Shown here: positions 9,261 to 26,740 of the stretch, piece after piece
How positions within the stretch are numbered: the first letter of the stretch is position 1
How the letters are laid out: each line of letters begins with the position of its first letter
Assembly (NCBI RefSeq): GCF_032397745.1
Contig: NZ_CP135921.1
Location: 1,984,001 to 2,048,000 of the forward strand
DNA: 64,000 nt
Direction of reading: 5' to 3'
Origin: Bradyrhizobium prioriisuperbiae
GTDB lineage: Bacteria > Pseudomonadota > Alphaproteobacteria > Rhizobiales > Xanthobacteraceae
Made by a program: the position numbers and the translations under genes
The notes under the pieces: generated by a model
The model's database searches: none
What the model saw: the letters and a program-made list of their open reading frames with translations, nothing else
What the model was told of the DNA's origin: nothing

Positions 9261-11768
<2,508 letters not shown>

Positions 11769-12313: not shown

Positions 12314-13687
12314 ATGGCGTGGAAATACCCCGACATCGTGGTCGTGGTCCCAGGTCTGATCGGTACCGCGCTCTTGAAGGACGGGAGGCCGCTATGGGGA
12401 ACTTCTCCTGGCGCATTGTGGGGCATCGTCGGGGGAAAGGCGCTAAAGGAGCTCTCCCTAACCGGGGCCGACAACGAAGACGAAGATCTCGGCGATGGGA
12501 TCGTCGCGACGGCGCTGATTGACAATATCGAGGTTGTTCCAGGCCTTTGGAAGCAGTTCGGGTACTCGCGCCTAACCGCCAGTCTATCCAAGGGCGTCGG
12601 TCTGATCCCCGGGGAGAACTATTTCACTTTTCCGTACGACTGGCGTCGAAACAACCGGGTTTCGGCTCGCAAGCTTGCCGCCGTGGTGCCCCGATGGCTG
12701 GAAAACTGGCGCCGCAACAGCGGCAATGCGGGCGCGAAGGTGGTCTTTGTAGTGCATTCTATGGGCGGGCTAGTAGCTCGGTACTACGTCGAGTGCCTTG
12801 AGGGCTGGAAGACAACCAGGACGATCCTGAGCTTCGGTACGCCGTATAAGGGATCCGGTAACGCGCTTGGGTTCCTATGCAACGGGTTCACCTGGAAGAT
12901 TGGCCCGATGAAGGCTTTCGACGGAACGGAAGCTTTGAGAACCTTCGACTCCGTTTACCAACTACTGCCGACCTATCCATTCGTAAAGGAGCCGGGCCCG
13001 GCGACGCTAAAACGTGTCGTCGAACTCGAACTGCCAAATCTAGATGCAGCACGGGCGAAGCGCGCACATTCGTTTCATGAAGAGATCCGGATCGCTCAGG
13101 AGCGTAACGCGCAGTCCGCTGAATACCATCAGGCGGGTCCCCGCGTACGCCCCGTGATCGGGACCGAGCAACCGACCGTGCAATCCGCGGCTTGGGACGG
13201 CAACAGCTTGACGCCGCTGATGGTGCGCGACGACGAGGATCATTCCGGAGACGGGACTGTGCCGCGCGTATCCGCACTCCCTCTGGAATTAGATTTTTCG
13301 AGCGCCACATACATTCCGAATACGCATTCAGCGCTACAGAGCGACGAAGCCGCGTTTGGACATATGCGGGGCGTGCTCACCGAGGCCGATGTGGATCCAA
13401 GAACCTATCGAGCCTCTTTGGGAGAAAGTTTCTCGCTTTACGTTGAAGACGCGTACCGCTCCGGGCAACCTGTTCACATCGAAGCGATGGCCAGCGACTA
13501 TCTTCAGGCGATCGACGGAGTTGTCGAGCGCATTGATGAGCCGGCTGTGCAGACGAACATGAAACTGAGGCTGGCCGGCGATCACTATCGTGTGGATATG
13601 TCGCTCGAGCCGGGCGCATATCGCGTACGGTTGTTTGCTGACCGATTCCACACTGTGGAAGACGTTTTCCTTGTCGTCGCTGACTGA
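12314..13687 (+). CDS. LCAT-like alpha/beta hydrolase (lipase/acyltransferase)
   Basis: A 457-residue protein of the lecithin:cholesterol acyltransferase/PGAP1-like hydrolase group. It opens with a beta strand and oxyanion turn (VVVVPGLIGT). The nucleophile is Ser149 in VVHSMGG, the probable acid is Asp313 in SGDGTVP, and the probable base is His338 in NTHSAL; SGDGTVP-like turns are typical of LCAT relatives. About 80 C-terminal residues look like a separate beta-rich domain. No signal peptide is seen, so it is probably cytosolic. The start at 12314 has GGAGG at the right distance; an ATG at 12278 lacks one. A CHAT protease gene follows after 18 bases, so the two are probably co-expressed. 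The lipid substrate is unknown. Confidence 0.82.
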   Translation: MAWKYPDIVVVVPGLIGTALLKDGRPLWGTSPGALWGIVGGKALKELSLTGADNEDEDLGDGIVATALIDNIEVVPGLWKQFGYSRLTASLSKGVGLIPGENYFTFPYDWRRNNRVSARKLAAVVPRWLENWRRNSGNAGAKVVFVVHSMGGLVARYYVECLEGWKTTRTILSFGTPYKGSGNALGFLCNGFTWKIGPMKAFDGTEALRTFDSVYQLLPTYPFVKEPGPATLKRVVELELPNLDAARAKRAHSFHEEIRIAQERNAQSAEYHQAGPRVRPVIGTEQPTVQSAAWDGNSLTPLMVRDDEDHSGDGTVPRVSALPLELDFSSATYIPNTHSALQSDEAAFGHMRGVLTEADVDPRTYRASLGESFSLYVEDAYRSGQPVHIEAMASDYLQAIDGVVERIDEPAVQTNMKLRLAGDHYRVDMSLEPGAYRVRLFADRFHTVEDVFLVVAD

Positions 13688-13705
13688 TCATTGGAAGCCG
13701 AAACA

Positions 13706-15541
13706 ATGGTTGTATCTCCAATATGGGCATGGTGGATGGCGCGCCACAAACCGATCCGCGCTAGAGAATTTCTTCGGAGCGACCAGACCACCGATTCGGA
13801 TGACGAATGGCGCTACGCGGTCGAGAAACTCCACCGGCTTCAAGATCTAGTTTTCGAGATTATGGTGGAGCGCGCCGACGAGTTGATCGTGATCTCCGGC
13901 AATGTCGCATCTGAACAGGTCAAGCGTCTTATCGCGGAAATCCTGACCGACTATGACCCTAAGGCACAGCTGTCGAACGAGCTCGAGGTCACGGCACCAT
14001 TCAGGTCGGCCGAGGACGACGACTTCACCATCGAGATGAAGGGCGGGCTAACGCTTGATGCCATCACGCCCGCTCCGATAATCTCCGTCGAGCGGTATCC
14101 GTCTTTCTCGAGCAACGAAAAGCCTGCAGTCGGGCGAAAGTTTCAGTTCGAAGTGGACTTGTCTACAATTCAGGGAGGTCGCGAGGCGATAAAGTTCGAC
14201 CTCCCGTCGGATTGGCAGATGGTTGCTATTGACGTCGATGTGTATTCCGCTCAGCTCGTTATGGAAGAAAAAATGAAGAGGCGAAAGGTCGCCTTATTCG
14301 AAGATGGTCGCTCACTACCCGCTCGCTTCCAAGGCGAGGTGGTTGGCGTGACCGAGGAAGGCACAGTCGACGTGCTGGTAAAGTTCACTTGCGAGGGACG
14401 GGCCAGCGGGATGGCGCGGGTGTCATTTAAAGTCGAAGAAGGAAATGAAACCGAAGTCGCCGGATCGAGCCCGGCGCAGCTTGGCGTAGCCGCTATGAAT
14501 GCCCAAGTTAGAGCCACTCCTCCTGACATGACGATCAGTATCTACAAAGCAGGTCCGCCGACGTCGTGGATCTGGATGGTCGATGCTCCGCACACTCAGA
14601 ATCTCGGCGCGGCGCAGCGCCACGGAACTATCGATATGCCGGATCCGGAAGCATTCGCCACCGAACTCCTGAAACAGTGTCCAACGCTGACGAAGCCGCG
14701 TCATGCTAGTAGGCTTCGTGGCATCGGCGAGCAGATCTGGGCTCGCGCTCCTGAGATGTTTCGACTCCTGTACAAGGATATGCGTGAAAAGTTCGGGCCA
14801 AGGTTCTCTATCCAGATTATGACGGAGGAGCCTCACGTCCCGTGGGAGATGATGTTCCCTGACGGCCAGTCGGGCATTCAAAATCCTGACCATCTGTTTA
14901 TGACTCACCCCATCTGCCGATGGAGCGCCACGTACGCACGAGACATGCGACCTCAAATAGAGTCCGGGTCGATTGCCAGCTTCGTACCTAATTATCCCGG
15001 CGGACAGGCGTTGCCTGCGGCGATCGCCGAGGGCCGATGGCTCGTCTCGTCCCTCGGCGCGAGAGCCATGGATCCCACCTGGGATAGCTTCACCAAATTC
15101 TGGACGACCGATCTTCCGAAGGAACGGGTGGCCGTTCTTCATTTCGCGGGCCACGGCGAGAATAAACCAGATCCCCGCATCCGGATGCTGGATGCATACG
15201 TATCCAGAGACGATGTCAACGGCGCCGTGAAATTGGGCAGCCGCGATGGAACGTTCGTGGTGCTCAACGCCTGCGAAGTGGGGACTGCCGATATGCGGCT
15301 GGGTCTGGCTTCAGGCTGGACCGAGAGACTAATCAAGCATTCTTTCGGAGGTGTGCTGGCGCCGCTGTGGAAGGTCGAGGACGACTGCGCATCGGAGGCT
15401 GTCAGGACTTATCTCGGGAAGTTCTGCCGTGGAATGCCCATGGGCATGGCCTTGCTGCAGGCCAGGAAGGCGCAGCGCGATCAGTCCGCCACACCCTACG
15501 CCTACATTTGCCACGGCGACGTCAACGCTACGATGCGTTGA
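13706..15541 (+). CDS. CHAT domain protease
   Basis: A 611-residue protein whose C-terminal ~200 residues form a CHAT (caspase-like) peptidase domain. His483 lies in LHFAGHGE and Cys523 in VVLNACEVG, the expected dyad, and the typical GGVLAPLWKVED strand follows. The N-terminal 350 residues are not a family I can name; a segment at about 90-250 looks beta-rich. The ATG at 13706 has GGAAG upstream; a TTG at 13691 is less likely. It lies 18 bases behind the LCAT-like lipase. CHAT proteases often act as regulated effectors in conflict systems, so the lipase could be its partner or target; that is inference. Confidence 0.85.
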   Translation: MVVSPIWAWWMARHKPIRAREFLRSDQTTDSDDEWRYAVEKLHRLQDLVFEIMVERADELIVISGNVASEQVKRLIAEILTDYDPKAQLSNELEVTAPFRSAEDDDFTIEMKGGLTLDAITPAPIISVERYPSFSSNEKPAVGRKFQFEVDLSTIQGGREAIKFDLPSDWQMVAIDVDVYSAQLVMEEKMKRRKVALFEDGRSLPARFQGEVVGVTEEGTVDVLVKFTCEGRASGMARVSFKVEEGNETEVAGSSPAQLGVAAMNAQVRATPPDMTISIYKAGPPTSWIWMVDAPHTQNLGAAQRHGTIDMPDPEAFATELLKQCPTLTKPRHASRLRGIGEQIWARAPEMFRLLYKDMREKFGPRFSIQIMTEEPHVPWEMMFPDGQSGIQNPDHLFMTHPICRWSATYARDMRPQIESGSIASFVPNYPGGQALPAAIAEGRWLVSSLGARAMDPTWDSFTKFWTTDLPKERVAVLHFAGHGENKPDPRIRMLDAYVSRDDVNGAVKLGSRDGTFVVLNACEVGTADMRLGLASGWTERLIKHSFGGVLAPLWKVEDDCASEAVRTYLGKFCRGMPMGMALLQARKAQRDQSATPYAYICHGDVNATMR

Positions 15542-15548
15542 TGGCTCC

Positions 15549-18095
15549 CTAGACGAGGGCCTGGATCCTCTCGGCCAGTAGCTGGGGTGGCACCAGCCTC
15601 GCCGTCTCGGCGAAGAGGTCGTAACCCTTCGATGTCGGAGTTTCGACGGAAACGATCAGCGAGAAGCGCGCAGGCTTTTTGTAATTGAGCGTGCTCGCCA
15701 TGTCGCCCCACCACCCGCGGACAGGGACAACGGAAATCCCATCGCGCTCGGCCAGTTGATAAGCTTTGCCTTCCCATTCGTCCTGAAGGATCGTCCCCAT
15801 CGAACGCTGCGCGCCCAACCAGCCGTCATTGCTGCCGGCGCCCGACATGGATTCTTCCGCCAAGCTATTCATGCGACGTTGGGCTCTCGCGTCGTCTTCA
15901 CCGAACCGCTTCACGTCGAACTTCAATCGGTAGGAGTGATATCGATCCATCCTGTCGCGGGTGACCGCGTGCGGATCTGGCTCGATAAAGTAGGACAGTG
16001 TGCAACGCATCCGAACGTCAACGCCGTTCAAACCCTTCAGTGTCGTTTTGGGCCACGGAAGTTTGAAATACTTCATCTCCCTAAGTCGGATCTCTTTTTC
16101 CTTGCCGTCCTTCAGCTTCCGTTCGTAGGGGTACAATTCGTCTTCGATGACCAAGGTCAGCGCGTTCGACGCGCTGTTGAACAGTCTGCTCTCGTCCGGG
16201 ACGCCCCAACCGAACCTGTCAATGATCGAGCTCCAGCCTTTGTTGCCATTTTCGGCTTCGAAGCTCTTGGCCTGCTCAATCATGGCCAGCGTCCATCGGG
16301 CGGAATGGACCATCATTCCGCGTATCGTTTCCATTCGATACTTCGGGTATCGGGCTGCGAGTCGTGCTGCGAGCCCGGCCGCCAACGCTGTGGCCGCGCT
16401 CGTTTGCCCGGAAACATCGAGAGGCTGTTCCGGAACGTCGCGCGATGTGGTCAGGACGAAGTGCTTCGGCGAAGGACGACAGAAGACACCATCCTCGTCG
16501 ACGATTAGATTGCCACCCTCCATCACGATGTCGGGTTTGCTCGGATGGGGTTTGTGCCATGAACTGGCGGTCCGTGATAACGGCATCAGATCTCCGGGAA
16601 GCGCGACGAGATCCCCGTCGCCTTTCCCTCTCTTGAGGCTGACCGCGCCTACGGCGAGCGCATTAGCTGCCTGGGCCGGAGATTGGATACCGAAACGGAC
16701 GTTGCGGCTCTCATAGTCCGCGTATTGATATGGTCGGTTTCGCGAATGAGGCGCATTACCGACCGCCGCACAGAACAAACGAGTGGTGTCCCCGTCGTTA
16801 TACGCGAGCTTATCCAGCACGGCGGAAGTGCTGGTGGGGCGACCGTCCTCGGACTCTCCGACTGCGGTCTGGGCCAGACAGAAAACGCGGCGCGCGGACT
16901 TTTTCTCGACAAGATCAATGGCGCGCTGCAGCGCATCGCGAGCAGGTACCGTCGCGGGCTGAGTTGGCGACGTCACTACGATCGACTCTAAGTTCGCCTC
17001 GAGAACGATCGGTCCCGGTTTCAGTATCGCAGCTTCGAGATCGCCATATAGCGCCAAGCCGGCCATCTTGGTGCCGTGGCCGGAGTGATCGTCGATCCCC
17101 CACTTCCCCTCCACCGTTCTGCAGTCGGCAGCGGCGAGCGATCCTCTGAGCAGGGGATTGTTGCGATTCACTCCAGTGTCGAGGATGGTAACCTTCGGGG
17201 CGGCCGGAGGCGCGCGTTCAATGCGGCGCGAAATCGCGTCGAGCGCGATTATGCGCTCGTCATCGGGCATGTTGAAGAAACCGGAAGCGAACGAAGACGC
17301 GCCTCGAAGTTCTATGACCGCGGCACTCTGCCGCACCAGCCGCTGTAACTCGAGAGGGGTTGCCACGACGCCGTGGATGACCGTCTCGATGAACTCCGTC
17401 GGCCTTCCGAAGAGCTCGACGCCCAGCTTCTTCGCCGCACTGAGAAAGTATGGCTGGAGCTGCAACTGCGTCCACACTTCCCATCGAGCCTTCTTGAGGC
17501 GGCTCGTCGGAAATTCCTCGACGTCGTCGGTCCAAAGATCGCGGAGAGTGGTCTCCCGGATGGTGGCGCCGCTCTCGAACAACCCAAAATTTTCGGGGCG
17601 GTTGACCTTGCGGGTGGTGTTAGAATCGGGATCTTTTTGGGGCTTTTGGCCGTATTCGGAGTATTCGTCGAGGTTCGACTTCAACCCCGCCAATCTGGTC
17701 TTGGTGACGAAGAACGTTGCCTGGTCTGGACCACCGTTACTGTCGTCTTCCGATTCCGCCGCGTCCGATCGCCGGACGTTCAGGATCTTCAGTCCCACTT
17801 TCGAGGAAGGCCTGCCCCTCCCGACCTTCAGTTCGACGTCCGGACGCCCCAATACGGTAAGCGGCATCCCTCTATGCTGGGCAGGAATTCCGGTATCGGC
17901 CTGTTCGCCAACGTAGTCCGCAAACTTTTCGGTCGCGATGTCGAGCTCAAGGCGGAGGCGGCGGCCATGGGCGGCACGATCATTTACCGGCTTGATGTCT
18001 TTTTCAGAACCGCCGCCGACCGCCCTGAAGCTCTTGGGCGCCGTTCCCAGTCCCCGAAGATGGATGTGCCGATAGCGCTTGTTGTCGTCAGCCAT
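15549..18095 (-). CDS. ietS: Large subtilisin-like (S8) protease, IetS-like
   Basis: An 848-residue protein with a long N-terminal region and a central subtilase domain. The triad is Asp306 (TILDTGV), His340 (SGHGTKMAG) and Ser566 (SGQTSAATALAAG); Asn447 (AVGN) is a candidate oxyanion residue. About 270 further residues follow. There is no signal peptide, so it probably works in the cytosol. It lies 38 bases behind an AAA ATPase gene with an XRE gene before it. This ATPase-subtilase pairing matches IetAS, described as a toxin-antitoxin pair on a Ti plasmid and later as anti-phage. The symbol rests on architecture, not on alignment. A TTG at 18110 would add five residues. Confidence 0.8.
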   Translation of the reverse strand: MADDNKRYRHIHLRGLGTAPKSFRAVGGGSEKDIKPVNDRAAHGRRLRLELDIATEKFADYVGEQADTGIPAQHRGMPLTVLGRPDVELKVGRGRPSSKVGLKILNVRRSDAAESEDDSNGGPDQATFFVTKTRLAGLKSNLDEYSEYGQKPQKDPDSNTTRKVNRPENFGLFESGATIRETTLRDLWTDDVEEFPTSRLKKARWEVWTQLQLQPYFLSAAKKLGVELFGRPTEFIETVIHGVVATPLELQRLVRQSAAVIELRGASSFASGFFNMPDDERIIALDAISRRIERAPPAAPKVTILDTGVNRNNPLLRGSLAAADCRTVEGKWGIDDHSGHGTKMAGLALYGDLEAAILKPGPIVLEANLESIVVTSPTQPATVPARDALQRAIDLVEKKSARRVFCLAQTAVGESEDGRPTSTSAVLDKLAYNDGDTTRLFCAAVGNAPHSRNRPYQYADYESRNVRFGIQSPAQAANALAVGAVSLKRGKGDGDLVALPGDLMPLSRTASSWHKPHPSKPDIVMEGGNLIVDEDGVFCRPSPKHFVLTTSRDVPEQPLDVSGQTSAATALAAGLAARLAARYPKYRMETIRGMMVHSARWTLAMIEQAKSFEAENGNKGWSSIIDRFGWGVPDESRLFNSASNALTLVIEDELYPYERKLKDGKEKEIRLREMKYFKLPWPKTTLKGLNGVDVRMRCTLSYFIEPDPHAVTRDRMDRYHSYRLKFDVKRFGEDDARAQRRMNSLAEESMSGAGSNDGWLGAQRSMGTILQDEWEGKAYQLAERDGISVVPVRGWWGDMASTLNYKKPARFSLIVSVETPTSKGYDLFAETARLVPPQLLAERIQALV

Positions 18096-18133
18096 TTCCG
18101 CCCGGTCCAAACGGGCGTACGCCGATTCGCCCC

Positions 18134-19114
18134 TTAATTCGGCTGTATATTAGCCCGATCCTGCAACGCGCGAAACATTAGTTCCGTCGTCAGCACGCCT
18201 TGGTTGTCGAGAACCGCCTCGCGCGCCGCGTCTTCCGCGGCGGCGACAAGGTCCGCCTGGCTGAGCTTCGGGGCGACCTGATCAATCTTCGGCCAGTCCA
18301 TCCGGGAAATGTCGAAAGCGAGCAGGTTATTGGCTATCACCCGTCGGGCCTCATCGATGCCCGGCTTCGCGTACACGAACGCGGAATGAAAGCGCCTGAA
18401 AAGGGCTGCGTCTAACAGCGACCGATGATTGGTCGCGGCAATGATGACGCTCCTGGATTGATCATCCTCTAAAAACTGCAGGAACGAATTCAACATGCGG
18501 CGCGCCTCGCCGATGTCGTTCTCCATGCTGCGGCTGGCCGCAAGCGCGTCGACTTCGTCAAAAAAATACACTGCGCGCGTAGCGTTCATGGCGTCGAAAA
18601 TCAGTCGGAGCTTCGCTGCTGTCTCCCCCATATATTTCGTGATCACGCTGTCCAACATGATCGTAAACAGCGGCAGATTCAGCTCTTTCGCAAGAGCGGC
18701 TGCGGTCATGCCTTTGCCAGTCCCCGGAGGTCCAGAGAACAGAAACTTCCGGCTTGGCTTCAGTCCACGCTCCTCGAGTGCCCCGGCCGATTGATGCTCA
18801 CGAACCAACCTCTCGATCCTACGGCGCAGATCGTCCGCCAGGACAACGTCCGACAGTTTTGTTTCCGGATACGACGCTCTGACTAGGTTGGCGAGCTCTC
18901 CTCGCGGAGTGACCAGCGGGATTGCTGCTGCAGCCTCGTTTCGCGCGGCATGATCCTTCGCCCGCGTAACGATGTCTCTGATCTCGCCTGCGACCTTGTT
19001 CTTCCCAGACTTATGGGCGTCGCTGGCGATGTGTTCCGCGATGGAAAAGAACTGCTGACTATCGCCGGCGGCGTGGCTCCGGATCATTGCTATGATCTGC
19101 TTGGAATTCGTCAC
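18134..19114 (-). CDS. ietA: AAA+ ATPase, IetA-like
   Basis: A 326-residue AAA+ ATPase of the FtsH/spastin-like type. Walker A is GPPGTGKG near residue 130, Walker B is VYFFDEVDAL, followed by sensor 1 (IIAATNH) and an arginine-rich FRRFH segment. There is no membrane segment or fused protease. It starts at GTG 19114, overlapping the stop of the XRE gene by four bases (GTGA) with a GGAGGGGTGA ribosome-binding site, so translation is probably coupled. In IetAS pairs the ATPase counteracts or regulates the subtilase. The symbol is assigned by analogy. Confidence 0.8.
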   Translation of the reverse strand: MTNSKQIIAMIRSHAAGDSQQFFSIAEHIASDAHKSGKNKVAGEIRDIVTRAKDHAARNEAAAAIPLVTPRGELANLVRASYPETKLSDVVLADDLRRRIERLVREHQSAGALEERGLKPSRKFLFSGPPGTGKGMTAAALAKELNLPLFTIMLDSVITKYMGETAAKLRLIFDAMNATRAVYFFDEVDALAASRSMENDIGEARRMLNSFLQFLEDDQSRSVIIAATNHRSLLDAALFRRFHSAFVYAKPGIDEARRVIANNLLAFDISRMDWPKIDQVAPKLSQADLVAAAEDAAREAVLDNQGVLTTELMFRALQDRANIQPN

Positions 19115-19458
19115 GATTTCACCCCTCCAGCGCGCCGCACCAGGGCCTCCTTCAATATTCGCTCTGCCCTTGGAATTAGGTTAACGAATTTATGCAATAA
19201 ACGCAAATCTTTTGCGGAAATCCCATCCACTGACAGGCCAGCAAGCCCGACAGAACCTCCCTCCGCATCCAACAGCCCGCAGATGCGCCCTCGCAAATCC
19301 GCCGAGAAACTGTCTGTTTCTAGCGATCTAGTGAGAGTGGAGGTAGCAACCCCCAACTGCTCAGCAACAGACGAATGGGTAAGCCCTGAGTCCTGGCGCC
19401 ACCTGCGAAGGCACGCCGCTAACTCAGGATCCACACTACGCTTGGGTCGCCCAGCCAT
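19111..19458 (-). CDS. XRE-type helix-turn-helix regulator
   Basis: A 115-residue protein with a helix-turn-helix at about residues 14-50 (LRRWRQDSGLTHSSVAEQLGV). It is the first gene of a three-gene operon with the AAA ATPase and the subtilase. The ATG at 19458 has no ribosome-binding site, so the message may be leaderless or the start poorly defined. A repeated TTGCAT motif right at the start codon (19460-19474) could be its own operator. An autoregulator of the toxin-like pair downstream is the simplest role. Confidence 0.75.
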   Translation of the reverse strand: MAGRPKRSVDPELAACLRRWRQDSGLTHSSVAEQLGVATSTLTRSLETDSFSADLRGRICGLLDAEGGSVGLAGLSVDGISAKDLRLLHKFVNLIPRAERILKEALVRRAGGVKS

Positions 19459-19459
19459 T

Positions 19460-19474
19460 TTGCATTTATTGCAT
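19460..19474 (-). promoter_or_regulatory. Candidate operator/promoter of the XRE-AAA-subtilase operon
   Basis: Two TTGCAT copies three bases apart (19460-19465 and 19469-19474) lie immediately upstream of the XRE start. They overlap an AT-rich stretch that reads like a -10 region on the minus strand. Autoregulation is inferred from position only. Confidence 0.35.
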
Positions 19475-19887
19475 AAAATACCCGACTGATCAACTCAGCG
19501 GGAAGGCGATTCGTTCCAAATGCGGCTGGAAGCGCCCTCGGCGCCGCGCAAACGCATCGAAACAGCACCGTATGTTCTTATTTTGTTCTATTATCGCAGA
19601 GATCCACTTCACCGCCAGTGCGGCGCCCGGCAATTGGTCGCTCTCATAAAACGAAACCACGCCGCTAGTGCGCTTGCAGCGACCAAAAGGCTGTGGTGGC
19701 GCTAGTGGCATTACACGTGGCAAATCGGGCGGCGCCAAGCCTCCGACACAGCAGCCGCAGAAGCAAGGCCCGCAGGTCGAGGGCATTGAATTGGCTAATC
19801 GGCCGTCGAACAACGGCCGGCGCTGAATCGCAGGCCACACCAATGCTATCTTCGGCCAACGCAGTTCGATCGAACTAACTCGCCAAT

Positions 19888-19913
19888 CACGCGGCCACCG
19901 CGTGGTTTTTTTT
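19888..19913 (+). terminator. Intrinsic terminator without an assigned gene
   Basis: CACGCGG (19888-19894) and CCGCGTG (19898-19904) form a 7-bp GC-rich stem with a 3-base loop, followed by G and eight T. The T-run is on the plus strand, so it ends a transcript coming from 19.5-19.9 kb. Confidence 0.75.
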
Positions 19914-19965
19914 GCAAACGAAGAACTGACTTTCGCGAACCGGAATGTAATTTGAGAGAGAGACG

Positions 19966-20523
19966 ATGATACGAAAACTATTTCTGGTATTTCTTCAGGC
20001 TGCGGCAGCGGTTTCACCTGCTTTTGCCGGAATGCCAAACCCTCATGTCGAGCGATGGGCAGATCATCGACATATCGTCATAGGGTCCGATCTCGAGCCT
20101 CAGCACTATGCAACTGCGGAGATTTCTGCGCCGGACAGCAACAGCGTGATCACCGTCGTGATCACATGCGAAAACGGCGCAAGGGGATCCAGTTGGACCG
20201 GGTATTTTACGCTTCTCTTCCGTCAAGGAGAAAATGTGCTCGCTTCTACCGTAGAGCACTGCCAACTTAGCAGGGGTAGGTCCGAATATAGTCATAAAAA
20301 GTACAGCAGGATCGTAACAATCGATCTTTCGAAGATCATCTGTCGGGTCGATAACGTTCAAACGAGCATCACGGCTGCGCCTCTCGCAATCAAACCGCTA
20401 CCGAACGACGAGCCTTTGTGCTCCGCCAGTGCAAGTCTGAACACCACGAGTCCGCAGTTCAATTCGGCGGATCGCGCCAGGCACCGCGCGTCTCACTCGC
20501 GGCGAGAGTCTCCATCATCGTGA
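19966..20523 (+). CDS. Predicted secreted protein, function unknown
   Basis: A 185-residue protein beginning with a typical Sec signal peptide (MIRKLFLVFLQAAAAV, cleavage probably after SPAFA). The mature part has four cysteines that could form periplasmic disulfides and a low-complexity Ser/Arg-rich tail. The ATG at 19966 has a GAGAGAG purine stretch upstream. I do not recognise the family. Its last 31 bases overlap the end of the convergent membrane protease gene (20493-21944), so the tail may be eroded or recently changed. A role next to the protease pair is possible but unsupported. Confidence 0.6.
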   Translation: MIRKLFLVFLQAAAAVSPAFAGMPNPHVERWADHRHIVIGSDLEPQHYATAEISAPDSNSVITVVITCENGARGSSWTGYFTLLFRQGENVLASTVEHCQLSRGRSEYSHKKYSRIVTIDLSKIICRVDNVQTSITAAPLAIKPLPNDEPLCSASASLNTTSPQFNSADRARHRASHSRRESPSS

Positions 20524-21944
20524 GCGCGACCGGATGCTGGCACCAACCTGGAATTTCCTAGCACTTTCTTGCGAAACCGAGGCAGGAATGTTCGCAAAAG
20601 AGCTCCGATTTGGATCAAGACCGCCACGAGAGCAAAGCCTTGCAGAGCGAGCGGCTGAACAATAGGAAAGAACGTGACGGTAGTCCCATTCGTGTCTCCT
20701 CCGTAGTGATAGGCGTTGTCCCGATAGCCACCAGTCGCCGGAGGCCTCGGCTTCACCGTGGAATAGAGTCCTGCATCCGGATGCAGGCAAAGCGGAGTAT
20801 CGCGCGGGATACAGCCCTTCAGCTCGTCCGCTCTAAATCCGAATTGCTCGGGGTAAATGTAAACCTTTCCTCGGTTGTAGAGCACATCAACGAAACGCGC
20901 TTCGATCACCAGAGGAATAAGCATGAAAAAAAGCAAGGTAAGCAAAGCAGATACCTTCGCCGCAAATGTCCCACGCTCGACAGGAATGGCGAGGAATCGA
21001 GGCACTCTCGACGTCCAATCATGAAGCTTGAAATCCTTTGCATGCATAAACCAGAGACAACTTACGGCCGTAGCAAGAACAGCGTAAACGTGCAGACCCA
21101 AGAATGGTGATAGGATATCTGGCTGACCTTCTATCGTACGGCGGTTAGCCAAGAAGAGATAGAACATGGATGCGAGCAGAACCGACGATAACGCAGTCCA
21201 AATGATATCGAACGAACGCGGCAATCGTCTCGTTTCTGTCGGAAGCTCCGGCCAAGCCTCCAGTAACCTCGCAGCCGGAATCATATATGCGATATCTTCG
21301 ACAGCATTATTGTAGGCTGTCACCATTCCGATGGCGGCGTCGTGGAAGATATTCCATACGGCAGCGCCGCTGAATCCTCCTTTGATCAGATCCGCGTGCG
21401 CCGCGAATTTTGGAGTAACATCCCTCTTGATGTTCCTTACGTGCCGGCTCAGTTGGGCTTGCGAGCCCATCGTCGGACCGACGAAGTTGGTGCTAACGTA
21501 GTTGTGGCCAGCCTGTCCTCCCAGCGTTCCGAACACTGAGAGCTCGTCGCCGTCGAGCCGCGACCAGATCAAGCCAAAAACGGCGATACCCGCGCTGCTC
21601 GGCGCATCCACGTCAAGTTGAAGCACCGCCACGTCTGAAGCGGTTGAGTGGCCCACCTCGCACCACACAATAACGCGGGCCGGCACGATCGCCCCCGGGC
21701 CCGAGGATAGGGGAAAGACCACATTCACGGATCGAGTGGGTTTTTTGGTGTTGGTCTTTGCTTCTCCCAGAGCGACGTTTACAACGTGAGCACAGGTGAT
21801 CACATGCCGTGGTGAGACGAGAGCACCCATACCCGCGTGTCTTGAGTTTTTGATCGACCCGCCCAAAGGATCTCGTTGATCCAACCGCGATGCGTCTTCG
21901 TTGACGAGAATCTTGGCGACACCGGCATCCTTACCAACTCTCAT
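20493..21944 (-). CDS. Trypsin-like serine protease with C-terminal membrane segments
   Basis: A 483-residue fusion. Residues 35-230 resemble a trypsin/HtrA-fold protease: His53 in TCAHVV, Asp104 in SDVAVLQL and Ser192 in GGFSGAAVW. Residues 240-465 hold about four hydrophobic spans (near 245-268, 285-305, 328-352 and 435-460). No signal peptide precedes the protease, so it probably faces the cytosol and is tethered to the inner membrane. The ATG at 21944 has GAGGAG upstream. A second protease, a subtilase, ends 55 bases upstream on the same strand, so the two are probably one operon. I know no named system with exactly this arrangement. Confidence 0.75.
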   Translation of the reverse strand: MRVGKDAGVAKILVNEDASRLDQRDPLGGSIKNSRHAGMGALVSPRHVITCAHVVNVALGEAKTNTKKPTRSVNVVFPLSSGPGAIVPARVIVWCEVGHSTASDVAVLQLDVDAPSSAGIAVFGLIWSRLDGDELSVFGTLGGQAGHNYVSTNFVGPTMGSQAQLSRHVRNIKRDVTPKFAAHADLIKGGFSGAAVWNIFHDAAIGMVTAYNNAVEDIAYMIPAARLLEAWPELPTETRRLPRSFDIIWTALSSVLLASMFYLFLANRRTIEGQPDILSPFLGLHVYAVLATAVSCLWFMHAKDFKLHDWTSRVPRFLAIPVERGTFAAKVSALLTLLFFMLIPLVIEARFVDVLYNRGKVYIYPEQFGFRADELKGCIPRDTPLCLHPDAGLYSTVKPRPPATGGYRDNAYHYGGDTNGTTVTFFPIVQPLALQGFALVAVLIQIGALLRTFLPRFRKKVLGNSRLVPASGRAHDDGDSRRE

Positions 21945-21999
21945 GTTTACTCCTCAGGAAAGGTATCGCGCAGACATCGTCGCTGGTCGAAGTCCATCG

Positions 22000-23211
22000 T
22001 CACTTTTGTGGCGCCTGCACAAGGCCCAGGCCGACGTGCCTGCGGTGACCGGGCAGTGAGACCGCGTTTGCCTCAAGCTTACGCCGAACGTCGTTCCCCC
22101 AATGGTCTGGCCTTTCCCCATTTGGAAAAAGATTCTGCAACCATAGGGCAGCGACACCGGCGACATGAGGAGTCGCCATGCTGGTGCCGCTCATCGCTAT
22201 CAACCCTCCATTTCGCTTAGCGGAAAGCACCGATTGTCCGGGTGCCACGAGCAGACAACCGGTGTTCGAAAAGGAAGAAATGGTAAAGCCTGACTTCTCG
22301 CCCTTGATCGACGAGATCGCTCCAACCGAGATGAATCCTTTGGCGGCTGCCGGTGGGGCTATTGCGACGGTGAAACGGGGATCAATTTCCCTTTGGCTTT
22401 CATTACCCGATGCCGCAATTAGAATTGCCCCACACCCTTTACGCGCCAGGGGGTCGAAATATGAATGAAGCTCGTCGAAGAAGAGCAGCGTTGATCGGTA
22501 CGCTTCGAGCGCTCTGGAAGTAGCGATCTTGATCGGATAATCCTTTTCGATGAGGCGCCCCACCAGGGCCGGAAAGTCGATTCCCAACGACATCGAAACG
22601 ATATCGGCCTTCCGTTTGAGCGCCCACTCCAACCCGAGGGTCACAGCTTCGGTCGAAGCGCCCTCCGGTCCAACCACTTTTACGATCAGCCCCCTGTCGA
22701 TGCCCGGAGCGACTCCGATCCGCTTCCCGTCAACCGTACAACCGAAAGCCGTGCCAGCGACGTGAGTACCATGCCCGCTAGGCTCGTCCGGTGCACTGCC
22801 CTCCACACCTTCCGGATGAGCCACGAAATCAATAAGCTCCAGCTTAGTCTTGGTGAACGCGACGTGATTGTGGTCGATTCCAGTATCGAGAATGGCGATC
22901 GTAACGCCGCGACCAACCTCATCGCAGCGATTGGCGCCGACCGCTTCAACTCCCCATACTTCGCCAGCTCCGGCATCCGGAGATTGCGACGACAGCTCTA
23001 GCGGAGCGATCAAGCTCAAGTTCACGGATGGAATTACGTCTTTGACTAGCCCTTCTCGTCGCAGATCAGCAGCTTCGCTGTCAGTCAACTCCTCAGTGAC
23101 CACCTCGAATGGAAAGCCACGGTACTCCTCGTCGGGTGAAGCGAGCTCAATACCCGCTTCCACTTCCGGCCGTCGTTTTATGACGAGATGCGTTTCCGCG
23201 CGTCTTTCCAT
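22000..23211 (-). CDS. Subtilisin-like (S8) protease, short form
   Basis: A 403-residue subtilase with the full triad: Asp109 (ILDTGID), His147 (SGHGTHVAGT) and Ser344 (SGTSMATPHVAG); Asn270 (AASGN) is the oxyanion residue. The first 90 residues could be an inhibitor-like propeptide or a binding domain. No signal peptide is visible, which is unusual for subtilases and points to action inside the cell. The ATG at 23211 has GAGGG upstream. It is followed after 55 bases by the membrane-anchored trypsin-like protease. It is distinct from the large subtilase at 15.5-18.1 kb. Confidence 0.85.
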   Translation of the reverse strand: MERRAETHLVIKRRPEVEAGIELASPDEEYRGFPFEVVTEELTDSEAADLRREGLVKDVIPSVNLSLIAPLELSSQSPDAGAGEVWGVEAVGANRCDEVGRGVTIAILDTGIDHNHVAFTKTKLELIDFVAHPEGVEGSAPDEPSGHGTHVAGTAFGCTVDGKRIGVAPGIDRGLIVKVVGPEGASTEAVTLGLEWALKRKADIVSMSLGIDFPALVGRLIEKDYPIKIATSRALEAYRSTLLFFDELHSYFDPLARKGCGAILIAASGNESQREIDPRFTVAIAPPAAAKGFISVGAISSIKGEKSGFTISSFSNTGCLLVAPGQSVLSAKRNGGLIAMSGTSMATPHVAGVAALWLQNLFPNGERPDHWGNDVRRKLEANAVSLPGHRRHVGLGLVQAPQK

Positions 23212-23417
23212 TTAGTCCCTCATTTGGGCTTCCAATCGAACGAATTCCTCGTTCGATGGTGGACGGAGGTCCAGGCGGCCATCGCTACGTGGGCTTCCGA
23301 TGCGATTTCCTCTACTTGCAGGCGCGAACGGCTAGTACACAACTCGACCTGCAAATTCGTCGTCCCCGATAACTTCATCGTACATCCGTGAACTTCGCCA
23401 GTAAAAAGGCACGATCG

Positions 23418-24683
23418 TCAACGAAGATCCGCCAAGTCGGCAGGCCGTAGAAACACCGCACCATTCCTTTCCACTTGGCCTCGCCTTTGTTTCTGAAAAG
23501 CGAGTTGACGCAGCGAATGCTTACGCCGCTCGAACGCTCTGAGGATTTCTGACGACCCGCGGGTGAGACTGCGTTTCTCGATATCCTCGAGTGTATCTCG
23601 GTGCACACGAGCCACCACACTTTTCTGGTCAACCAAAATTCCAAACTCGATTTCGTCCTCGGATACGATCCTGGTCATTTCATCGAGAAACAACTCTGGC
23701 CGCTGCTCGCGCTCCTTACTTGGCTCGGTCAACGGAAACGTCGCCAACACGGCAAGAGCTGCCTCCTCGGAAGGAAACAGGTTCAGATTCGGATAGAAGC
23801 GGATGGAATGATGCAGCTCGTCACGCTCGTAGGTCTTCTCCGACACGATCCCGAGAAAGTGGACACGTTCGCGAAAGTGCCTCGCGGCTTTAGTCGGGTT
23901 CCCAGGATCAAATGCACCTCGGATTGGATGCTGCCTCCCGTCACCAGTCACAAACCGACTCTCGATGCATTCCGGAACAGCGTTAGCTCCGTACGCGATC
24001 AAATGACCATCAATCCGGTCAGCGCCCATGACACCGAACGCTCGCGCGTCGACTACCAGCATAGAGAAGCGCGAGCCATCCGGACTCGGAAATTTCGCGG
24101 GCTGCCCCGCCTGAGCTGCTTTCCGCACCATGCGCTCAATGGCTTTTACAACCTCGCCCGCCGGGCTTTGTTTGGCCAACCTCTCCAGTCGTTGGCGCTC
24201 TTGATGGGCCTCCGCAACAATCTCTCGCCGGATCGCTTGTTTAAGCGCATCGTGTTCGCTACTCGCGTCCAACATCGCCAAGTCTCGTTCGCGCTTCTGG
24301 TCGGCTTCCTCGATCTCCCCAGGGCTTGGCGGTTGGTACGTAACTAAGAAGCGGCCAGAAACCGGCCCCTCTTGCCAGGTCGCGGCTTTGAGTGCGTCGC
24401 TTTCGTCCAGGGAGTAGAGTTCAACCAGCCAATGCCCAAAGCGAAAATCGACCGTCGTGTTGCCCACCCCTGCGGCATGCTCGTACTCTGGCGTAATTCC
24501 CCGGTCATGCAGCGCCAGCCCAAAGCGGCCCTCGAAAAGTGACGCCATGTTGTCGGTAGACAGCCCCCCTGTCTTCGCGATCCGCGCCACCAGTTGAGCG
24601 GCCCAAGACACGCCGCGGAGAGTGTCGAGAGCGCTCCGTGTCGCCTCGGCCTCGGCTTGGGACAAGTTGAAGAACTGTGTCAT
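23418..24683 (-). CDS. Uncharacterised protein, possible PD-(D/E)XK-like N-terminus
   Basis: A 421-residue soluble protein without a recognised family. Residues 50-95 read as a conserved-looking block, FEGRFG then GNTTVDFRF then HWLVELYS. This resembles the G...D...ExK pattern of restriction-like nucleases but lacks the lysine (ELY), so the assignment is speculative. Residues 115-190 are rich in Glu, Arg and Ala and probably form a coiled coil. The ATG at 23.68 kb follows a TTG and has no strong ribosome-binding site. A gap of 206 bases separates it from the downstream subtilase; it may be the first gene of the same operon. Confidence 0.6.
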   Translation of the reverse strand: MTQFFNLSQAEAEATRSALDTLRGVSWAAQLVARIAKTGGLSTDNMASLFEGRFGLALHDRGITPEYEHAAGVGNTTVDFRFGHWLVELYSLDESDALKAATWQEGPVSGRFLVTYQPPSPGEIEEADQKRERDLAMLDASSEHDALKQAIRREIVAEAHQERQRLERLAKQSPAGEVVKAIERMVRKAAQAGQPAKFPSPDGSRFSMLVVDARAFGVMGADRIDGHLIAYGANAVPECIESRFVTGDGRQHPIRGAFDPGNPTKAARHFRERVHFLGIVSEKTYERDELHHSIRFYPNLNLFPSEEAALAVLATFPLTEPSKEREQRPELFLDEMTRIVSEDEIEFGILVDQKSVVARVHRDTLEDIEKRSLTRGSSEILRAFERRKHSLRQLAFQKQRRGQVERNGAVFLRPADLADLR

Positions 24684-24918
24684 CAATTAGTCGCGGGAAA
24701 AGACCGATTTCGTCCTTTATCGCATGAGCTTATCCCACGGCGGTCCTAAGATTCAACGGCTCGGCCAGGTAAGGCATGCCCACCAGTCATGCCGCGGGCC
24801 AATCCCTCTCATCGGCACCAGATCCACCATGGTTTGGACAAATATGGCCTCAAGTGTTGGACGTATTCGGGTCAGCCCCTACATGTATTTGCCCGTCCCC
24901 CTTTTGTGAGACCGCTCC

Positions 24919-25671
24919 ATGAGCGACGATCTTTGGCACCAACTGCCTTGCGGCTTCCTCAAAAAGACGTCCAAAGGCTGGATGCGTCTGGACCGGGACT
25001 TGAGACTGTTGATCGTGAAACTAGCCAGTGCGCAGAAATTTCGATGCGCATTCTGTGACCGAACCAAAGGTCTTATTGTCGAGCACGACCATTCGCCGGT
25101 GCGCGGCAGCGGCGACAAGCCCACGATCTACAACGTCCGTGGCCTCGCGTGCCATCGATGCAACTGGCATCTAGGTATGTACGAAGCCGACGCGCGAGGC
25201 GATTATCTCGCCTGGAACGATGTGTACATCCGCATCTCTGAATGCGATTTTGATCCATATAACTACGCCTACGAGTGCCGCGTACTTACATTGCTGGAAA
25301 ATGAGCTTGAACAGCAGCTTGAGCCAAGAAATTACTGGCGTAGGCGCCAATTCCTACAGAAGTTCGACGATTGGAATGAATGGGGCCGCGGCTGTTACCC
25401 ATGGCGGTCGTATTTCGCCGAGATCAAGGAACGGCAGCGCCGAAAAATCCGAACACCCGAGCAATTCTGGAACAATCTGGCGGATATCGTCCGTTTCTTC
25501 ATCGAACAGCGGCAGAAGAATCCGGATGCCGAATTACCGGATTCGTTTGCAAAGCTTCTCGTCCGCCTGAAACCGATTTTGGACAATGCACGACCGATTA
25601 TTGAGGAACGATATCGCGAAATTCAAGCGAGCCAGCTGACCATCGCGACTGACCTTCTTCCGCACCGCTGA
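24919..25671 (+). CDS. HNH nuclease of the recombination endonuclease VII type
   Basis: A 250-residue protein with an endonuclease VII-like HNH core at residues 40-90. It has a CAFC zinc knuckle, an EHDHS segment with the catalytic histidines, then RGLACHRCNWHLG with the second zinc knuckle. Phage T4 endonuclease VII resolves branched DNA and similar domains occur in defence and mobile elements. The C-terminal 150 residues are helical and unassigned. It has a weak ribosome-binding site and stands alone on the plus strand. Its base composition is like the island, not the chromosome core. Confidence 0.7.
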   Translation: MSDDLWHQLPCGFLKKTSKGWMRLDRDLRLLIVKLASAQKFRCAFCDRTKGLIVEHDHSPVRGSGDKPTIYNVRGLACHRCNWHLGMYEADARGDYLAWNDVYIRISECDFDPYNYAYECRVLTLLENELEQQLEPRNYWRRRQFLQKFDDWNEWGRGCYPWRSYFAEIKERQRRKIRTPEQFWNNLADIVRFFIEQRQKNPDAELPDSFAKLLVRLKPILDNARPIIEERYREIQASQLTIATDLLPHR

Positions 25672-25828
25672 AATGCGGAGGTGCGTGGGAGGAGTTCAGC
25701 CCATCACTCAGGACGGCCATCGGAAGCACCAACAACCTCCTCCACCTCGCTCGCGAGCACCCCACCGAGACAACGCAAACGAGTGCGGCGCCAGTCGAAG
25801 TGCGTCCCTAACGGACTATTCATCAGCG

Positions 25829-25920
25829 ATGATCTGCATTTGGTGTCAAAAAGAGTTCGAGCGTCTCTCAGTTGAGCATGGGATCCCCCAGGCTCTTGGG
25901 TGCCCTGATGCCTTGGTCAT
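25829..25920 (+). pseudogene. 5' fragment of an HNH-like gene at the island's inner right edge
   Basis: About 30 codons starting MICIWCQKEFERLSVEH and ending near GCPDALV look like the N-terminal zinc-knuckle part of an HNH-type protein (CxxC, then a ...SxEHxIPxxLG pattern). The frame then runs without a stop into the middle of a flavin monooxygenase. The natural continuation of the HNH protein is absent, so this is a truncated gene at a recombination junction. Confidence 0.55.
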
Positions 25921-26740
25921 GCGCAGGCCGGCGCACTTCGCGTCCGCGGCGGCCACGCTGGACAACCTGACCGGCGGCCGCGTGCGGATCAACATCGTGT
26001 CGGGCAAGGACAACCTCGCTGCGTACGGCGACAGCGAGGGTGATCAGGCCCACCGCTATGCCCGCACCAAGGAGTTCATGCGGCTGGTTCGCCGATTGTG
26101 GACCGAAGAGAACGTGACTTACGCCGGCGAGCACTTCCGCCTGACCGGGTCCACCGCGATGCCGCGCATTCCACTTCGCGGCGACCGCCGACACCCCCGG
26201 CTCTATTTCGGCGGAGCCTCGGAAGCAGCCGAACGGGTGTCCGCCACCGAAGCCGACGTACAGCTGTTCTGGGGCGAGCCGCGCGAGGGCGTCCGGGAAC
26301 GGATCGCGCGACTCAACGCGTTGAGCAGGGAACTGGACCGCGACCTGCCTGCGCTGGAGTTCGGGTTGCGGATCACCACGCTGGTCCGCGACACCACGGA
26401 GCAGGCCTGGGCCGATGCCGAGGCGAAGGTCGCCGAGATGGCCAAGAGCAACGGCGCCGGCTGGAGCGACCACCGCGAGGCGGTCGCGGAGGGACAGCGG
26501 CGGCTGCTCGACCTGCACACGCGCGGCGAGGTGCTCGACGACAACCTCTATACCGCGCCGGGCAAGTTCGGCGGCGGCGGGGCCGGCACCACCTGGCTGG
26601 TCGGCTCAGCAGAGGACGTCGCCCGCTCCCTGCGCAAGTATCAGGATCTGGGCATCACGCACTTCGTGCTGTCCGACACGCCCTACCTGTCCGAGATCAA
26701 GCGTCAGGGCGACCAGTTGCTTCCGTTGCTGCGCAACTGA
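25921..26740 (+). pseudogene. 5'-truncated LLM-class flavin-dependent monooxygenase
   Basis: About 273 residues match the middle and C-terminus of SsuD-like luciferase-family monooxygenases, with blocks AATLDNLTGGRVRINIVSG, HRYARTKEFMRLVRRLW, RLYFGGASEAAERV and LVGSAEDVARSLRKYQDLG. Roughly 90 N-terminal residues normally present, including the start, are missing and replaced in frame by the HNH fragment. Base composition rises sharply at the junction, in line with separate origins. The fused reading frame could be translated, but it would lack part of the TIM barrel and is probably non-functional. Confidence 0.8.

Follow-up and report, generated by a model that had tools for sequence, protein, structure and literature searches.

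A candidate protease-switched lipase: an LCAT-type lipase and a CHAT protease facing an IetS/IetA-like gene pair in Bradyrhizobium prioriisuperbiae

What might a predicted phospholipase do when its gene directly precedes that of a caspase-superfamily protease? The question is raised by a 64,000-nucleotide stretch of the Bradyrhizobium prioriisuperbiae genome (contig NZ_CP135921.1, positions 1,984,001 to 2,048,000; the whole stretch is here called the window and positions are numbered from its first letter), in which an LCAT-type lipase gene is followed by a CHAT protease gene. The initial annotation had read the two as a regulated suicide module. Its coordinates and frames were right: the lipase gene (12314-13687, 457 amino acids) and the CHAT gene (13706-15541, 611 amino acids) are co-directional, with 18 bases between stop codon and ATG. 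The pair is one half of a larger unit, the other half being a subtilase and an AAA ATPase gene at 15549-19114. We give about an even chance to the reading that this unit is a mobile self-destruct module of the abortive-infection type, with a protease-switched lipase as effector, an IetS/IetA-like pair as trigger and a cascade that would lead to membrane damage. The features of the first half are as follows.

12314..13687, forward strand: LCAT/LPLA2-type alpha/beta-hydrolase (lipase), 457 amino acids, with the core at residues ~1-360 and a C-terminal beta-sandwich at ~370-457 (Pfam LCAT 2.5e-12, invariant triad, model, fold search)
12758..12760, forward strand: codon of the nucleophile Ser149 (HSMGG; invariant in both lipase alignments)
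13250..13252, forward strand: codon of Asp313 (invariant in both lipase alignments)
13325..13327, forward strand: codon of His338 (invariant in both lipase alignments)
13394..13423, forward strand: residues 361-370, the lowest-confidence linker from the core to the C-terminal beta domain and a candidate regulatory stretch (mean predicted local distance difference test score, pLDDT, 49)
13706..15541, forward strand: CHAT (caspase-superfamily) cysteine protease, 611 amino acids, with the CHAT domain at residues ~423-596 (Pfam CHAT 1e-7, family alignment)
15152..15154, forward strand: codon of His483 of the CHAT dyad (12/12 sequences)
15272..15274, forward strand: codon of Cys523 of the CHAT dyad (12/12 sequences)

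The Pfam LCAT model matched the lipase above its gathering score (47.2 bits, cut-off 21), and the triad proposed in the initial annotation, Ser149, Asp313 and His338, was present without exception in alignments of 9 and of 17 sequences, the window included. In the AlphaFold2 model (mean pLDDT 87.6, predicted template modelling score 0.90) a poorly predicted linker, residues 361-370, connects the hydrolase core to a C-terminal beta-sandwich. The top solved structure in a Foldseek comparison was lysosomal phospholipase A2 (4x92, E 8.6e-14), followed by LCAT (4xx1, 4.9e-11), and the BlEst2 lipase in its propeptide form was also among the matches (4.1e-5). A sequence search of solved structures gave Group XV (lysosomal) phospholipase A2 as the nearest (E 9e-10), then several bacterial lipases and LCAT at ~1e-3. 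The fold, the HSM nucleophile elbow and the Ser-Asp-His residues are common to the window lipase, lysosomal phospholipase A2 (PLA2G15) and LCAT; the window lipase differs in being ~19% identical (Foldseek), in its C-terminal beta-sandwich and in the absence of a signal peptide. None was evident by inspection, the chain beginning at the first core strand. The natural reading of the predicted protein is a cytosolic phospholipase, the substrate of which we infer.

The protease likewise matched Pfam CHAT above the cut-off (32.1 bits, cut-off 24), and the His483 and Cys523 dyad, described earlier as intact, was found in all 12 CHAT sequences, the window included. Also the description of its N-terminus as long and unassigned held, as Pfam gave beyond CHAT only weak matches (E 0.019 or worse) in the six family members scanned. 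Two candidate domains were rejected for this region. A BON-like (lipid-binding) domain at residues ~40-100 had been suggested by the residue pattern and a weak NCBIfam match (ArfA_OmpATb_N, E 0.1), and neither Pfam nor a PDB sequence search supported it. TCAD7 is present in the CHAT proteins of L038 and L041 and was not found in the window family with Pfam, the profile comparison aligning only from about residue 215. As a single query against genome contigs the window CHAT sequence gave no match. The CHAT profile gave five matches in 397 genomes of the order, the organism's own at full length and the four others in the C-terminal part only, and thus no further cassette. The only other CHAT match found in the own genome lies 2.8 Mb away in an open frame of 1001 amino acids (L001, G000:C1:4824053-4825000).

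A CHAT gene lies directly downstream of the lipase gene in the window and in all five loci with a lipase at least 42% identical to it, the spacing in these relatives ranging from a 4-bp overlap to 15 bp. Three of these pairs came from plasmid searches (Bradyrhizobium 27S5, L016; Rhizobium acidisoli, L017; Agrobacterium S7/73, L024) and two from same-family genomes (G179, L025; G197, L026). Altogether 13 of the 296 genomes of the family had an LCAT match: three (the own genome, G179 and G197) were 57-100% identical to the window lipase, each with a CHAT gene, and the ten others were at most 35% identical. The CHAT gene in turn faces an operon running from 19458 down to 15549 in the order small helix-turn-helix (HTH) protein, AAA ATPase and S8 subtilase.

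15549..18110, reverse strand: S8 subtilase of the CHAT-linked IetS clade (PADLOC IetS 1.9e-32, Pfam S8 7e-40, invariant residues, tree)
18134..19114, reverse strand: AAA ATPase of IetA type carrying both Walker motifs, A and B (PADLOC IetA 8.7e-70, invariant residues, tree)
19111..19458, reverse strand: small HTH protein at the head of the AAA-S8 operon, a probable regulator (Pfam HTH_31 9.8e-7)

In the window, 7 bp separate the stop codons of the CHAT and subtilase genes. The CHAT and S8 genes were convergent in all eight loci with a close CHAT relative (the window, L016, L017, L020, L024, L025, L026 and L123), their stop codons lying from an 11-bp overlap to 27 bp apart. Homologues of the small HTH protein occupy the same place in L025, L026, L017 and L119. 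Four of the eight cassette loci are plasmid-borne, and AbiE, TIR or caspase genes lie near two, the second of which has a metallo-beta-lactamase (MBL) hydrolase in place of the lipase. At L017 (5586-10593) TniQ, TniB and DDE transposase genes, a set which we take to be Tn7/Tn5053-like, lie upstream of the cassette, which is possibly transposon cargo there. The initial annotation had named rare adjacency of the two genes, or no association with defence or mobile regions, as counting against its idea; instead, the pair was found conserved, with plasmid-borne copies and defence genes near two loci. Its two-gene scope proved too narrow, since the CHAT gene is tied to a clade of IetS/IetA-like genes and the lipase slot is exchangeable.

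In addition to the PADLOC matches, the subtilase has D305, H339 and S565 (numbering from 18092), present without exception in 10 sequences. Both proteins scored below the NCBIfam equivalog cut-offs (ATPase 193.4 against 510 bits for IteA, subtilase 35 against 900 for IteS), and on these scores we regard the pair as relatives, not equivalogs, of IetAS. In the tree of 31 subtilases the eight CHAT-linked S8 proteins formed one clade (support 100/99), present in 100% of 200 bootstrap trees. In the ATPase tree, seven CHAT-linked AAA proteins fell into one group (100/99), which also held a remnant from Methylorubrum extorquens AM1 (L119); aligned stretches shorter than 550 (S8) or 250 (AAA) residues were left out of these trees, the truncated S8 of L119 being too short. 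This remnant is a decayed copy on a megaplasmid (L119, 9640-12612); from the CHAT-linked clade it retains an HTH gene, an AAA gene and a truncated subtilase, with no CHAT gene. When the window CHAT and lipase were used as queries, no relative of either was found near any of 23 ordinary IetAS loci within flanks of ~4 kb, or less where the contig ended or was cut (L127, L132, L133). These loci were 20 of the ~40 ordinary S8 places together with three plasmid loci, and the window pair is 32-37% (S8) and 43-51% (AAA) identical to them.

Plasmids had 455 records matching the subtilase; among the best 40 by coverage and identity, four were 48-58% identical to the window subtilase, each with an adjoining CHAT gene, and the other 36 were at most 34.3% identical, the truncated M. 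extorquens subtilase lying outside these 40. Of the 296 family genomes 22 matched, three at 56-100% (the own genome, G179 and G197) and the remainder at 41% or less. In the 397 genomes of the order 18 matched, every one except the own at 46% or less.

In the toxin-antitoxin systems that IetS/IetA pairs are described to form, the toxin is the subtilase and the antitoxin the ATPase (PMC8562856, PMC5006074), and IetAS is entered as anti-phage by NCBI and PADLOC. The window pair has in common with IetAS the gene pair, the Pfam and PADLOC families and the catalytic residues, but it forms a separate clade, lies far below the equivalog cut-offs and is coupled to CHAT and a hydrolase. This raises the alternative that one cassette holds two independent systems, an abortive lipase-CHAT pair and an IetAS toxin-antitoxin that stabilises the plasmid or island, co-inherited and not wired together. 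The two transcription units are separate and convergent, IetAS-type pairs act alone elsewhere according to the papers cited, and the halves can part: at L016 lipase and CHAT are retained, but the S8 is shortened at its N-terminus and the AAA gene is missing, and L119 keeps HTH, AAA and truncated S8 with no CHAT. All eight placeable S8 proteins of the clade nevertheless face a CHAT gene, against none at the 23 ordinary loci, and the stop codons nearly touch in all eight. We consider two unconnected systems rather unlikely.

The first gene of the cassette is a lipase in six of the eight loci and an MBL hydrolase in two, Agrobacterium CG920 (L020) and an IMG/VR contig (L123). The two MBL hydrolases share 37% identity; Pfam Lactamase_B matched that of L123 (1.2e-11), and L020 had weak Pfam matches only (0.015, 0.051). 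With PADLOC, the L123 protein matched LmuA (1e-64), Avs1a (2e-38) and RTasMBL of DRT systems (1e-41), and the L020 protein the same three models (1e-62, 2e-41 and 3e-32, respectively). In PMC12799240 the names HamA, Avs1a and LmuA refer to the protease-bearing proteins, whereas the PADLOC Avs1a and LmuA models match the MBL protein; we have taken these models as the presumed MBL members of those systems. The S8 and AAA trees (100/99) and the CHAT tree (85/92) all group L020 with L017 and L024, which are lipase loci, and 0% of 200 bootstrap CHAT trees joined the two MBL loci. The lipase/MBL label required two changes on the CHAT tree, one if the best-supported branches alone are considered. Because of this grouping and the two label changes, two or more exchanges of the hydrolase in this slot, on one and the same chassis, are most likely.

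A constant CHAT protein with a variable hydrolase could also mean that the protease is the killer and that the hydrolase, whether lipase, MBL or phosphoesterase, makes or destroys a signal controlling it, so that the lipase would be no effector. Calcineurin-like phosphoesterase genes precede two more distant CHAT relatives, overlapping the CHAT gene at L023 (3929-7179, Ti plasmid) and L124 (5839-9170, IMG/VR contig), which appears to be a further hydrolase-CHAT pairing and fits this alternative. Across phyla, however, it is the lipase that is constant and the protease class that varies, and in experiments on protease-paired MBL hydrolases elsewhere, as reported in PMC12799240, it is the hydrolase that acts as effector, with the protease as its activator. 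A signal-controlled CHAT killer seems quite improbable.

When genome contigs were scanned with the lipase alignment, the best 80 of 209 matches corresponded to 79 loci. A thiol-protease gene was found at most 300 bp away in 26 of the 29 loci with a lipase of at least 200 bits (plasmid and family-genome loci included, the window excluded), in 14 of the 24 loci at 100-200 bits, three of these (L069, L070, L074) being weak matches in opposite-strand frames overlapping the lipase, and in none of the 45 loci below 100 bits. The count left out L001-L015 and L042 (own genome, duplicates and short extracts, L010 being only a short extract), L020 and L023 (no lipase), and L117 and L118 (partial viral-contig matches). 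Of the 26 positives, 24 were detected with hidden Markov models (HMMs) and two, L043 and L037, with Pfam CHAT; neighbours at the same loci had served to build the HMMs for the caspase and transglutaminase classes, so that matches there are partly circular, while the control of 45 loci and the Pfam results are independent of this. The three loci with no such neighbour were L036 (a 4.1 kb contig with a convergent S8 subtilase), L039 (CHAT two genes upstream) and L040 (contig end inside the lipase).

The partners fall into three classes: CHAT, caspase-like proteins (GH and C motifs) on a STAND-type NTPase, and transglutaminase-like proteins (invariant Cys and His), mostly also on a STAND-type NTPase. 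Pfam Peptidase_C14 matched five of 11 caspase-like N-termini (best 1.7e-4). The term transglutaminase-like is based on Cys103 and His129 (L052 numbering), invariant in 10 sequences, and on Pfam Transglut_core matches in five of the 10 at E ≤ 1 (best 7e-4); a PDB sequence search with the transglutaminase-like profile gave nothing meaningful. In 13 loci (L018, L019, L021, L044, L047, L049, L051-L054, L056, L057 and L059) the lipase is followed by a protein with an N-terminal transglutaminase-like (C...H...D/E) domain, with a P-loop behind the domain in 10 of the 13 and tetratricopeptide repeats in L044. A comparable layout with other proteases was seen at L027 (9412-15301), where a more distant lipase and a lipoprotein-like gene face a subtilase and a trypsin-like protease.

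Ordinary functions in lipid metabolism are typical of LCAT/LPLA2-like enzymes, and the lipase might accordingly serve in envelope lipid turnover, with CHAT and IetAS as incidental passengers of an island; that none of the 45 distant relatives has a thiol-protease neighbour is in line with this. Such a non-defence role is highly improbable in view of the patchy distribution (three close copies in 296 family genomes, the own included), the four plasmid-borne cassettes among eight, the lack of a signal peptide, the exchange of the hydrolase slot with a defence MBL family and the presence of AbiE, TIR or caspase genes in the vicinity of two loci.

Protease-gated hydrolases are already known from defence systems. 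According to Tuck et al. 2025 (PMC12799240), the MBL hydrolases of Hachiman, AVAST and Canu are inactive pro-nucleases that are activated by a partner trypsin-like or caspase protease; like switching is suggested there for other enzyme classes, with coevolution with the protease as one proposed hallmark. As in the gated pairs of Hachiman (HamM), AVAST type I, Lamassu and DRT treated there, a separate hydrolase gene lies directly upstream of the protease gene in the window, but the hydrolase is an LCAT-type lipase instead of an MBL protein, the CHAT protease stands alone and an IetS/IetA-like pair is a further partner. An MBL-fold hydrolase upstream of the protease is thus absent from the window and present in the sister loci L020 and L123. 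No STAND match over the cut-off, which the MBL and protease-STAND arrangement of AVAST type I would have, was found among the ten window proteins scanned (12314 to 26740). With Canu (PMC12799240) the window shares the coupling of a caspase-superfamily protease to a hydrolase effector, but in place of the MALT1-like caspase with an Ig domain and the MBL nuclease it has CHAT and a lipase, with other components and gene order. Kaur et al. 2020 (PMC7159879) report that in VMAP systems an alpha/beta-hydrolase is invariably found next to caspase-superfamily domains. The idea that a caspase-superfamily peptidase acts together with such a hydrolase was therefore already in print. The predicted partnership is common to the window and the VMAP ternary systems, but the further genes here are S8 and AAA; no MoxR, vWA or VMAP gene, and so no VMAP-MoxR-vWA triplet, was found among the same ten proteins.

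The position of the lipase, in the MBL slot before a caspase-superfamily protease, makes it a candidate for protease switching of the kind described by Tuck et al. (PMC12799240), and the MBL precedent together with the neighbours of Kaur et al. led us to read the window as a cascade cassette with the lipase as final effector. In this self-destruct reading, the lipase would be a phospholipase-like effector kept inactive or off its substrate in the cytosol, and the neighbouring CHAT protease its dedicated switch, activating or releasing it by limited cleavage. At the trigger stage the IetS-like subtilase would be restrained by the IetA-like ATPase, in the manner of the known IetAS toxin-antitoxins. 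This restraint may be upset by infection or by the entry of a plasmid, upon which the subtilase would act on, or join, the CHAT protein, and the proteolytic cascade would end in membrane damage by the lipase. A wider and more tentative proposal, which we hold to be somewhat improbable in its entirety, is that immune zymogens activated by proteases include a second class, a pro-lipase of LCAT/LPLA2 fold. It would be coupled to CHAT, caspase-like or transglutaminase-like proteases and, through them, to differing sensors (an IetS/IetA-type pair or STAND NTPases), could be replaced in its slot by an MBL pro-nuclease of Avs1a type, and would act here against the own membrane through a cascade from subtilase to CHAT to lipase.

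Several points weigh against the self-destruct reading, among them the parting of the halves at L016 and L119. As IetAS elsewhere consists of two genes alone, the half with CHAT and lipase may simply be a neighbour that works independently. In the lipase neither a cleavage site nor a blocking insertion has been demonstrated; the model stretches 31-40, 71-80 and 361-370 are less certain, and it is not established that they cover the active site. Neither the lipase nor the CHAT protein matched any PADLOC model, and the L020 and L123 MBL hydrolases are linked to the known gated systems by PADLOC models, not by alignment to HamM itself. The lipase scan of viral contigs gave no close relative and four weak ones at 24-35% identity. 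The lipase tree needed two partner-class changes for three classes, the minimum possible, against 18 for shuffled labels (39 rows, 37 labelled; weaker or duplicate loci, e.g. L063, L065, L066, L069, L070, L074 and the second L068 copy, omitted). The partner classes therefore appear to be inherited with the lipase and rarely exchanged, which argues against free shuffling of proteases and for long-term coupling.

Around the cassette, recF and gyrB, as we take these genes to be from their translations, lie upstream of the lipase gene, gyrB ending at 11768. In a blastn comparison with two relatives (G043, G005), of which 40 kb beyond gyrB were taken, the gyrB end alone matched the window; the flank (window 11769-64000) is variable or rearranged. 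A promoter and terminator scan found about as many sites as in shuffled sequence. Upstream of the IetAS-like operon and on the same strand, 20493-23211 (reverse) encodes another subtilase (S8 9.8e-41) besides a protease of trypsin type (Pfam Trypsin_2 1.5e-6), possibly a second protease-based conflict system of the region. Beyond these are a 422-amino-acid protein with a weak DUF1488 match (23418-24686, reverse) and a gene matching recombination endonuclease VII (24919-25671, forward; 3.7e-8).

In the open-access literature, subscription papers, preprints and supplements lying outside the search, we recognised no account of an LCAT-type lipase with a CHAT, caspase or transglutaminase-like protease in defence, and no paper in which CHAT is coupled to IetAS. 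Protease-effector pairs and caspase/hydrolase neighbours (PMC7159879) are already known kinds; as far as these searches show, what is new is that the lipase serves as an exchangeable partner and is coupled to a clade of IetAS. The locus offers a concrete candidate class, the lipase, for protease switching, with one of the hallmarks proposed by Tuck et al. (PMC12799240), coevolution with a protease. Lipase and MBL hydrolase in one slot of one chassis also make a natural experiment. Bacterial gasdermin provides a case of protease-gated membrane death. If the reading is true, protease-switched bacterial cell death would be widened from DNA cutting to membrane hydrolysis, and IetAS-type toxin-antitoxin pairs would gain a downstream effector.

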